A stretch of DNA of 64,000 nt from Planctomycetota bacterium (lineage in GTDB: Bacteria > Planctomycetota > Phycisphaerae > Phycisphaerales > SM1A02): positions 186,001-250,000 of the forward strand of contig JACZRS010000001.1 in NCBI GenBank assembly GCA_022574595.1. The letters are read 5' to 3'. Positions 51,446-54,656 of the stretch are shown one piece after another. The notes beneath the pieces are model-generated. The model saw only the letters and a list, made by a program, of their open reading frames with translations, searched no databases and was not told the DNA's origin. A program made the position numbers and the translations under genes. The first letter of the stretch is position 1, and the number at the start of each line of letters is the position of its first letter.

Positions 51446-52111
51446 CTAAAAAACCTCACCTGAGTCCAACAGATCGCGGATGGCTTGAGGTGAATCGTCA
51501 CTTAGCAACTGGCGTGCAGTCGTGCCGTCTTCAGTCTTAATGCCTTGATCGGCACCATGCTCAAGCAATAAAGTAGCAATCGCAACGTCGCCATGCTTGG
51601 CAGCAGCGTGAAGTGCGGTCCACCCGCCGTTTTGTGTGGTGTTTGGATCTGCTCCAGATTCAAGGAGGATTTGGATGATATCGGTAGATCGGCTTGCCGC
51701 AGCACTATGCAAGGCGAATACGCCTCCAAATGCAGTAACAGCGATATCAGTTTGTGCGCCGTGTTTCAAGAGAAGCCTAGCTGCATCAGTTTGGGAGAAG
51801 AAACACGCAAGGTGTAATGGTCGTGCACCATCTGCAGCTTGAGCATTCGCCAAAGTTGAATCGTTGTCAAGCAGGGATCGCAGTTTATTTATCTCGCCTG
51901 TGCCAGCAGCATCGAAAATGTCTAATTCTGGTTTCTTTGCAAGCAAGCATGCAGCAATATTTCGCTGCTGCTGATACAACGAAATGAGAATGGCAGAGAT
52001 GCCGTCTTTATTTCGTGCCGAGGCGAGGCTGAGATTCTCCGCAAGAAGTGAATTAACTCTTGAGAGATCACCGTTGCTAATAGCATCAAAGAATTTCGTT
52101 GTGTTTTCCAC
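51446..52111 (-). CDS. Cytoplasmic ankyrin-repeat protein
   Basis: A 221-residue protein composed almost wholly of ankyrin repeats, about six (ISALISLYQQQ-type cap, ARPLHLACFFSQTDAARLLL, FALHSAAASRSTDIIQILLE, TALHAAAKHGDVAIATLLLE). No signal peptide, so it is a cytoplasmic protein-binding scaffold. A GTG start at 52111 has GGAG eight bases upstream; a TTG two codons earlier is too close to that site. It converges with the DUF2339 gene. Confidence 0.82.
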   Translation of the reverse strand: MENTTKFFDAISNGDLSRVNSLLAENLSLASARNKDGISAILISLYQQQRNIAACLLAKKPELDIFDAAGTGEINKLRSLLDNDSTLANAQAADGARPLHLACFFSQTDAARLLLKHGAQTDIAVTAFGGVFALHSAAASRSTDIIQILLESGADPNTTQNGGWTALHAAAKHGDVAIATLLLEHGADQGIKTEDGTTARQLLSDDSPQAIRDLLDSGEVF

Positions 52112-52362
52112 GATCAATACTCCATAGTTTTATCAGTAACATATCACCGAAGCCAGGCAACGAAGATCAATACCACAGTCGTCACCCAAGCAAATCACCG
52201 AATCCTAGTACTGAAGCCAATCAAGAAATCTCTGTACCAAAGCCAACACCAAGCCGGGCACAAAACCATTGCCAGGCCCAACACATAAACCAACACCAGA
52301 ATCTCCCTCCACACTAAGAGAAAACAAGTAAACAAACCAGCAAACCAACAAATCAAAAAATA
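52112..52362 (+). other. A/C-rich intergenic region
   Basis: No gene. From about 52140 the plus strand is strongly A/C-biased with irregular CCAA, ACCGAA and AAGCCAA units (GAAGCCA, AACCAACA, CAAACCAGCA). It looks like a degenerate simple-sequence tract. It ends where the duplicated MarR promoter begins. Confidence 0.5.
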
Positions 52363-52413
52363 TGCCCTTGTGGCACTTGATTTAGTTAGTTAGCCTAACT
52401 AACTTAATTAGCA
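52363..52413 (+). promoter_or_regulatory. Upstream copy of the MarR promoter with palindromic operator
   Basis: TGTGGCACTTGATT (-35-like TTGATT 52377-52382) is followed by AGTTAGTTAG-C-CTAACTAACT (52384-52404), a perfect 10-bp-arm palindrome, nine bases before ATG 52414. It is a copy of the element before the intact MarR gene, 387 bases downstream. Confidence 0.75.
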
Positions 52414-52690
52414 ATGTCAAGCATGAAATCAAAGAGAGTGAGAGGAGCAGAAGAGATCTGGGACAGTGGCTGTAGCCATAGCAGCCAGAGCGGCAGCGCT
52501 AGCAAGGCTTGTAGTTGTATCAAGGGTAGCATGGCTTTCGCGGCACGAGTGGTACTGGAGTTCGCAAGGATAGCCGACAGGCGTTGCGGATCGTTTGTGC
52601 TTTACTGCCACACACTTGCTGTGAACAGCGAGCCAAGTCGATTCGCAAAGCCGAATCAGTCCAGCTCGGCTGTCCGCTCCCTTACACTCT
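52414..52690 (+). pseudogene. Decayed 5' copy of the downstream MarR gene
   Basis: The start reads MSSMKSKRVRGAEEIWDSG, matching MPRLKAKRVRGAEEAWDSG of the intact gene. Further on, GTTGCGGATCGTTTG and a 26-base stretch covering AAGCCGAATCAGTCCAGCTC recur in both copies. The offset is 387 bases at the start but 422 at that shared block, so a 35-base length difference has shifted the frame, and the homologous frame also has a TGA (CTG TGA at about 52612). Homology ends before the DNA-binding domain would be encoded. Confidence 0.75.
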
Positions 52691-52750
52691 CCCATCCCTC
52701 CTCTCTCTATCCCTCCCTTCACGTCTTCCACCATATCTCCACCACACCTT

Positions 52751-52800
52751 GTCCCTGTGGCACTTGACAAAGTTAGTTAGACTAACTAACTTAATTAGTA
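52751..52800 (+). promoter_or_regulatory. MarR promoter with palindromic operator (probable autorepression site)
   Basis: TTGACA (52764-52769), a perfect -35 box, is followed at once by AGTTAGTTAG-A-CTAACTAACT (52771-52791) with perfect 10-bp arms, ending nine bases before the ATG at 52801. A palindrome covering the spacer and -10 region is the usual site for a MarR dimer acting on its own gene. There is no ribosome site in the nine bases before the ATG, so the mRNA may be nearly leaderless. Confidence 0.75.
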
Positions 52801-53409
52801 ATGCCGAGATTGAAAGCTAAAAGGGTGAGAGGTGCAGAAGAGGCTTGGGATAGTGGCCATAGTGGAAGTGGTATCCGGAGTAGCCGTGGTAAAAGTGGTG
52901 ACAGTGGTAGAAGTGGCGGCTGTAAAAGAAGCGGCGACAGTGGTAGCAAAGGTAGCATTGGTAGTAAGGGAGGGCTTGGCGTTCGCAGAGCGATCCGCCA
53001 TGGTGTTGCGGATCGGTTGCACTCTGCTGCTATACATTTGCTGCGAACGGTGCGCCAAGTCGATACTCAAAGCCGAATCAGTCCAGCTCGGCTTTCTGCA
53101 TTATCTGTGCTTGTATTTGGTGGTCCGAGGTCGCTGCGAGAACTTGCCGATGCTGAGCAAGTTACGCCACCAACCATGAGCAAGATCGCTCAAGCATTAG
53201 AAGCTGACGGCTTCATCGTGAGAAAAGGTGACCGACTCGATCTAAGAACGATCCAACTTCGAGCAACTCCTAAAGGTAAAGCTATATTACAACGCGCCCG
53301 AAAACTGCGCATTGATTCGCTCGCAGCATTATTATCATCTACTTCAAAGAGTGAGCTAGCAATACTGCAGCAAGCAGCCCACATCATCGAACAAGCTGTG
53401 AATCGCTAG
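52801..53409 (+). CDS. MarR-family transcriptional regulator with Ser/Gly-rich N-terminal extension
   Basis: A 202-residue protein. Residues about 60-202 form a MarR winged helix: HLLRTVRQVDTQSRISPARL, ALSVLVFGGPRSLRELADAE, the recognition helix in VTPPTMSKIAQALEADGFIV, the wing RKGDRLDLRTIQLRATPKGK, and a C-terminal dimer helix. Residues about 17-56 are a simple-sequence tail of Ser, Gly, Lys and Arg encoded by AGTGGN-type repeats, unusual for this family. The duplicated palindromic operator upstream fits autoregulation. The target besides itself is unknown; the YVTN gene 170 bp downstream is a candidate. Confidence 0.85.
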   Translation: MPRLKAKRVRGAEEAWDSGHSGSGIRSSRGKSGDSGRSGGCKRSGDSGSKGSIGSKGGLGVRRAIRHGVADRLHSAAIHLLRTVRQVDTQSRISPARLSALSVLVFGGPRSLRELADAEQVTPPTMSKIAQALEADGFIVRKGDRLDLRTIQLRATPKGKAILQRARKLRIDSLAALLSSTSKSELAILQQAAHIIEQAVNR

Positions 53410-53579
53410 ATTATTAAGCCAAATTTACTTGCCCCACCTTGTTTCCAGTCACTATAAGCAATAATCCAACATACTTGACTGTTTAATTCTACAACTGGGT
53501 TATGTGTTGCTGTATGCTATGCAACAGAGAGTAGCCTATTCTTAAAGGCTCTCGTAGTTTAGCTCAGAAGGAGAAACAA

Positions 53580-54656
53580 GTGAAGATTTTCCAATTACCG
53601 AGTATTGCGTTATTTTTAGCATTTATTGTTGTAGGTATAGCACAAGGGCAAACAACAGCGCGTGCAACCTCTCAACCGGCTGCGGGCACCGGAACGCTGA
53701 TCGTTCTCAATAAAGATGGCGCTTCGGCTTCGATCATTGATCGGGTTGGTGGCAATGAAATCACGCGTATAGATACCGGCATCGGACCGCATGAAGTCGC
53801 GGTTTCGCCTGATGGCAAAATTGCTGTGGTAGGTAACTATGGTCAGCAGCAGCCCGGCCACACACTTACTGTGATTGATCTTACATCCCAAAATATCGTA
53901 AGAACTATTGACTTGGAAAAATACCATCGCCCACACGGGATCGTATTCATGCCTGATGGCAAGCATGTCGTAGTTACTGCTGAAGTCGAGCAGAAGCTGC
54001 TCGTTGTTAATATTGATTCGGGAATTGTTGAAAAGGCCATCGACACCAGCGCACGTACGAGCCACATGGTTGTACTTTCTCCAGATGCAAAGCGCGCTTA
54101 TGTATCGAACATCGGTTCTGGTTCGCTAACAGTAATTGATTTAGAAGCAGCTACGCGCATAAAAACCATCGAAACCGGCCAGGGAGCGGAAGGACTTGAT
54201 ATTTCTCCGGATGGATCGGAAGTATGGGTGGGTAATCGCGGTGCTGACACTATAAGTATCGTTAATACAGAGTCGTTAGAGGTTGTTGAGACGCTCAAGT
54301 GCGCTACATTCCCTATTCGACTGAAATTTACACCTGATGGCAAGCGCATTTTAATATCCAATGCGCGAAGCGGCGATGTTGCGATTTTTGATGTAAAGAA
54401 GCGAGCCGAGATTACGCGGATTGTAATGGCAAAGGATTGGAAGCCCCCATCCGGTAAGGAAGATTTGTTCAGGCAAGGACCTGTGCCGATCGGAATTATG
54501 ATTCCGCCCGATGGCAAACACGCATACGTTGCTAATACAAACGTTAATCTAGTAACAGTGATAGATTTGCAGACGTTAGAGATTATCAATCGACTCACAG
54601 CAGGTGCACGACCAGATGGACTAGGCTATTCACCATTGGTGTTGGGCAAAGAGTAA
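53580..54656 (+). CDS. Exported YVTN-type beta-propeller protein
   Basis: A 358-residue protein with a signal peptide (about 1-22) and about seven 40-residue beta-propeller blades, each with a VSPDGK/VANxx pattern (GPHEVAVSPDGKIAVVGNYG, TSHMVVLSPDAKRAYVSNIG, IGIMIPPDGKHAYVANTNVN). These proteins act as periplasmic or surface binding scaffolds, and some are lactonase-like. The GTG start has AAGGAG seven bases upstream. It lies 170 bp after the MarR gene with no terminator seen. Confidence 0.85.
   Translation: MKIFQLPSIALFLAFIVVGIAQGQTTARATSQPAAGTGTLIVLNKDGASASIIDRVGGNEITRIDTGIGPHEVAVSPDGKIAVVGNYGQQQPGHTLTVIDLTSQNIVRTIDLEKYHRPHGIVFMPDGKHVVVTAEVEQKLLVVNIDSGIVEKAIDTSARTSHMVVLSPDAKRAYVSNIGSGSLTVIDLEAATRIKTIETGQGAEGLDISPDGSEVWVGNRGADTISIVNTESLEVVETLKCATFPIRLKFTPDGKRILISNARSGDVAIFDVKKRAEITRIVMAKDWKPPSGKEDLFRQGPVPIGIMIPPDGKHAYVANTNVNLVTVIDLQTLEIINRLTAGARPDGLGYSPLVLGKE

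Follow-up and report, generated by a model that had tools for sequence, protein, structure and literature searches.

In the usual layout of MarR regulation, one intergenic site represses both genes of a divergent pair (PMC4992311). Divergent MarR-target pairs with a shared palindromic operator include YvmB/PchR-yvmC in Bacillus subtilis (PMC4992311) and SlyA-ydhIJK (PMC6401476). The window analysed here, a stretch of 64,000 nucleotides, holds a locus with the elements common to both, namely a winged-helix MarR repressor, an intergenic palindrome, a divergent target, and predicted autorepression. It differs from them in that the target is an ankyrin-repeat gene, the operator-promoter is doubled, and the upstream copy of the regulator is evidently dead (Table 1). 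The sharing of an operator between a MarR gene and its divergent neighbour is an arrangement already known. For a doubled operator-promoter in which each copy has kept the opposite -35 box and the upstream one lies in a dead regulator gene, no description was found among the open-access papers covered.

Duplication-degeneration-complementation (subfunctionalisation) is a general evolutionary model for regulatory elements. The locus would be akin to it in that the copies appear to have lost different sub-elements of the ancestor, and together they would retain the ancestral output. The difference lies in what is divided, here two directions of one bacterial operator-promoter and not two coding paralogues, with one coding copy lost.

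Table 1. Features of the doubled MarR operator-promoter and its neighbours, in window positions.
Feature	Positions	Strand	Remarks
Ankyrin-repeat gene, divergent from MarR	51446-52117	-	Pfam Ank_2 2.7e-27; orthologue divergent from MarR in L040; related ankyrin genes in L041, L018, L020
A/C-rich spacer, 245 bp	52118-52362		74% A/C; single-copy in genome; between ankyrin gene and upstream operator
Decayed copy of MarR promoter, operator, and first ~100 codons	52363-52677	+	Blocks of 81% and 83% identity to 52750-53099; TGA; net 35-base difference
MarR-facing promoter-like element, upstream copy, weakened	52377-52405	+	TTGATT-N17-TAACTT
Upstream palindromic operator (predicted)	52384-52404		AGTTAGTTAG-C-CTAACTAACT; no upstream-lineage change relative to L040
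Ankyrin-facing promoter-like element, kept in upstream copy	52392-52420	-	TTGACA (52420-52415)-N17-TAGGCT (52397-52392); same in L040
Pyrimidine-rich stretch	52678-52749		84% C+T, 1% G; in the place expected for the DNA-binding half of the upstream copy
MarR-facing promoter-like element, working copy	52764-52792	+	TTGACA-N17-TAACTT
Downstream palindromic operator (predicted)	52771-52791		AGTTAGTTAG-A-CTAACTAACT; fills the spacer of the MarR promoter
Ankyrin-facing element position, downstream copy, -35 lost	52779-52807	-	TCGGCA-N17-TAGTCT
Intact MarR-family regulator, 202 aa, Ser/Gly-rich N-terminal extension	52801-53409	+	Pfam MarR 1e-06; orthologues aligned
YncE-like beta-propeller gene	53580-54656	+	Pfam YNCE 9.6e-23; syntenic with L040, 68% identical there

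The intact regulator lies above the curated Pfam cut-offs for PF01047 (29.0 bits; cut-off 24.6) and PF12802 (28.5 bits; cut-off 27), and these models place the winged helix-turn-helix of the MarR family in its product. The best solved-structure match by sequence is Rv0880 of Mycobacterium tuberculosis (PDB 4yif; residues 70-196, E 1.7e-10), a dimeric regulator of the same family in which the match reveals no counterpart of the window protein's Ser/Gly-rich N-terminal extension. This extension (52858-52995) comprises about 45 residues, is rich in Ser, Gly, Lys, and Arg, and contains short 9-base repeats. An Arg/Gly-rich extension is present in the orthologue of the relative L040, and the other six orthologues in the alignment have none; no further MarR orthologues were found in the order of G072. 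Another MarR regulator of M. tuberculosis, Rv2887, was considered as a parallel for the operator and rejected, as it binds a different, GC-rich site. Downstream, the YncE-like gene is a possible further target of the regulator.

The promoter, operator, and 5' part of the MarR gene occur twice in tandem. According to the earlier note, which was made from the window alone, the upstream copy resembles the first part of the MarR coding sequence and was destroyed by a 35-base length difference and a stop, and aligning the copies, a check it proposed, bears this out. Two blocks align, 52363-52470 with 52750-52857 (88/108 identical, 81%) and 52580-52677 with 53002-53099 (81/98 identical, 83%). A gap-rich low-complexity stretch separates them, and the offset between copies shifts from 387 to 422, a net 35 bases. 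One TGA lies in the second block of the upstream copy when it is read in the MarR frame. Homology runs to roughly codon 100 and takes in only the beginning of the Pfam MarR match (residues 94-150), and the upstream copy ends before nearly all of the DNA-binding domain; a remnant of the missing half was sought in the pyrimidine-rich stretch and no match was found. Judged by its sequence, the upstream gene copy is dead. An assembly duplication is unlikely, since the aligned blocks differ by 17-19%.

Both copies carry the palindrome AGTTAGTTAG-N-CTAACTAACT, with perfect 10-bp arms around one central base. As the earlier note had described, each palindrome ends nine bases before an ATG (52414 and 52801) and is preceded by a TTGA-type -35 box, which reads TTGATT upstream and TTGACA downstream. 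The chance expectation of such a palindrome is 0.00 in shuffles, even with three mismatches allowed. Its 17-base core has two sites only in the window's 4.09-Mb genome (<=2 mismatches), a copy number that rules out a dispersed repeat or mobile element. At <=1 mismatch the core is absent from the 396 other genomes of the class, and the window's own is the sole carrier of 397.

The palindrome is very probably the MarR operator, as the earlier note took it to be, on the basis that it is kept before orthologues and present before other MarR genes. The absence of the palindrome from orthologues had been named there as evidence against this role, and a comparison of relatives did not refute it. In three close orthologues (L040, L041, and L017), a palindrome of the TTAGTTAG-N-CTA type occupies the equivalent place in the promoter, straight after a TTGACN box and shortly 5' of the MarR start. 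These read AGTTAGTTAG-C-CTACATAACT in L040, whose MarR protein is 62% identical and comes from the same family, AATTAGTTAG-C-CTAACTAAAT in L041, and AGTTAGTTAG-G-CTAACTAAGC in L017. L018 carries TTAGTTTGAGAAACTAA at the corresponding position, and the more distant orthologues of L019 and L039 are preceded by TTAGC-type variants.

A scan for GTTAGTTAGNCTAACTAAC across 84,980 species genomes returned 16 exact matches. Seven lie 0-51 bases 5' of, or across the start of, Pfam-called MarR genes, and the equivalent gene of Lysinibacillus, truncated where its locus ends (L031), brings the total at MarR starts to 8/16; two others precede TetR genes. Enrichment at MarR starts was judged by inference against the small share of a genome that lies at MarR gene starts. 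Hosts of the matches include Methanosarcina, Lysinibacillus, Photobacterium, Clostridia, and Myxococcota, and this diversity indicates that the motif has been used repeatedly. The same palindrome also stands just 5' of a DUF1858 gene in a Chloroflexota genome (L033:6424-6442), which may be a regulated target, although no regulator was recognised beside it. A literature search on the operator sequence together with MarR found nothing relevant.

Comparison with relatives makes the ankyrin-repeat gene a probable second target of the regulator. Gene order in L040, ankyrin(-), MarR(+), YncE(+), is identical to that of the window, with a single MarR gene and a single operator, and this single-copy state is presumably ancestral. 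The operator lies 39 bp from the ankyrin start in L040, compared with 266 bp in the window, and the A/C-rich spacer of the window has no counterpart in the shorter gap. A divergent ankyrin-MarR pair with a palindrome between the genes is kept in L040, L041, L018, and L020. The palindrome of L020 (1439-1461) is a different but strong one in the same place, GATGCATAGA-GCG-TCTATGCATC, which suggests that operator and regulator may have changed together there. At a search threshold of E <= 1e-25, no ankyrin orthologue without MarR was found to serve as a palindrome control in 181 family genomes, the sole other match being in the genome of L040 itself. In L019 (1024-1407) and L039 (2474-2956), the gene divergent from MarR belongs to the glyoxalase superfamily and not to the ankyrin type; the target partner appears, from this gene content, to have been swapped.

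In the TTAG-type loci, promoter-like elements overlap the operator on both strands and are predicted to be in use. Towards MarR, L040, L041, L017, and L018 share TTGA(C/T)N-N16-17-TAnnnT, with the operator occupying the spacer, and on the opposite strand TTGACN-N16-18-TAnnnT also overlaps the operator in these four. The -10 boxes are weak on both strands, so a strict sigma-70 scan of 52000-53600 gave no match. A search for ankyrin-strand promoters covered the full intergenic region and the MarR start. Its best match overlaps the operator in L040 (shuffle P 0.094), L041 (P < 0.001), L018 (P 0.025), and the window, and no operator-overlapping match of this kind was found in L020. By itself, the score of the window's element is within chance expectation (shuffle P 0.17 locally, 0.33 over 337 nt); it is the sole candidate above 6/12 on the minus strand in 52105-52450. 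Its position is not conserved; measured from the operator centre, the element of L041, L017, and L018 is about 10 bp more distant than that of L040 and the window.

The two copies have lost different parts of this two-way arrangement. Relative to L040, the upstream copy matches the ankyrin-facing element exactly and its MarR-facing -35 box has become TTGATT, and the downstream copy retains the MarR-facing TTGACA and its ankyrin-facing -35 box has become TCGGCA. The pattern is complementary, with one direction weakened upstream and the other lost downstream, as read from one outgroup and few sites. Nine changes at 52372-52425 could be polarised with L040 as reference. Two belong to the upstream lineage, both in the MarR-facing -35 box. 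The other seven belong to the downstream lineage, and the ankyrin-facing -35 box accounts for two of these. From the operator through the ankyrin-facing -35 box (52384-52425), 0 upstream and 6 downstream changes contrast with 10 and 4 in the second coding block (Fisher p = 0.011), a comparison of small counts polarised mainly with one close relative. With L041 as outgroup, the second coding block gives 11 upstream and 3 downstream changes. Even the first codons of the dead upstream copy (ATGTCAAGCATG) match L040 exactly, and the living gene has diverged there. A whole-length relative-rate count was set aside because the low-complexity stretch is unalignable. TTGATT also occurs towards MarR in L018, so the upstream MarR-facing box may still work.

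We put at slightly better than even the odds that duplication of a two-way operator-promoter was followed by a division of its directions between the copies, in which the upstream one remained as the operator of the ankyrin gene. The ancestor would have had a divergent ankyrin-MarR pair with one palindromic operator overlapping both promoters, from which MarR would have repressed both itself and the ankyrin gene. Tandem duplication of the MarR gene with its operator-promoter in the lineage of the window would then have been followed by decay of the upstream MarR copy, including loss of its DNA-binding half. The upstream operator and ankyrin-facing -35 box are proposed to have been preserved through a continuing role at the divergent ankyrin gene, and the downstream copy would have specialised in MarR autorepression. 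Both operators are most likely bound by MarR, which would block its own promoter from the downstream site and, from the upstream site, the divergent promoter, thereby repressing the ankyrin gene. The ankyrin transcript would start about 270 nt before its start codon, in which case the 245-bp spacer would be its leader. Release of the repressor by a ligand is general for the MarR family, and a ligand presumably frees the regulator from both sites. To the fuller statement that the bidirectional operator-promoter was duplicated with the repressor gene, that complementary -35 loss split the directions, and that the dead repressor gene merely carries its neighbour's operator, we give an even chance.

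Sequence retention around the upstream operator bears on whether that copy could be a passive relic, functionless and with its operator intact by chance or through a duplication too young to have decayed further. The palindrome arms differ between copies at 0/20 positions and the remainder of block 1 at 20/88 (Fisher one-sided p = 0.010), in keeping with the earlier note's view that the second operator stayed intact beside a decayed gene. Among positions identical in L040 and the downstream copy, changes in the upstream copy number 0/30 from the operator to the -35 box and 10/59 in the second coding block (one-sided p = 0.012). Both contrasts, together with the lack of any other good promoter candidate on the ankyrin strand of the region, make a relic rather unlikely, even though the promoter block as a whole is similar between copies beyond the palindrome (44/51 identical) and the two alignment blocks have diverged about equally overall.

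Having recognised both repeats, the earlier note overlooked two points: the counterpart of the upstream copy is the presumed ancestral operator of a divergent ankyrin-MarR pair that is conserved, and the -35 box retained in each copy faces a different direction. Its own suggestion was that the regulator may act from both sites, 387 bp apart, in looped or cooperative autorepression; two MarR dimers would then act jointly on the MarR promoter. Two intact operators do lie on one DNA segment 5' of one gene, but the sequence gives no pointer to looping, orthologues have a single operator, the part weakened upstream is the MarR-facing -35 box, and -35 loss in a matched pattern would not be expected from such a model, which we consider improbable. 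A second MarR-regulated promoter or decoy, with the upstream copy driving a leader transcript or the frameshifted 117-aa ORF 52414-52767 or titrating MarR, is very improbable, since this ORF, although open from the conserved ATG, retaining KRVRGAEE-WDSG, and synonymous at 4/9 codon differences in the block, does not share the frame of the MarR core and matches no Pfam family, and the copy's own MarR-facing -35 box is weakened.

Partitioning of a two-way operator-promoter would make the locus an example of bacterial regulatory subfunctionalisation that is open to testing. A shared operator couples the levels of repressor and target, and duplication would uncouple them and let each gene tune its own promoter. 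Such a history would also show why a seemingly useless pseudogene can be partly retained. Beyond the window, the comparison defines a MarR-ankyrin divergent pair that is present in genomes from several families of one phylum.
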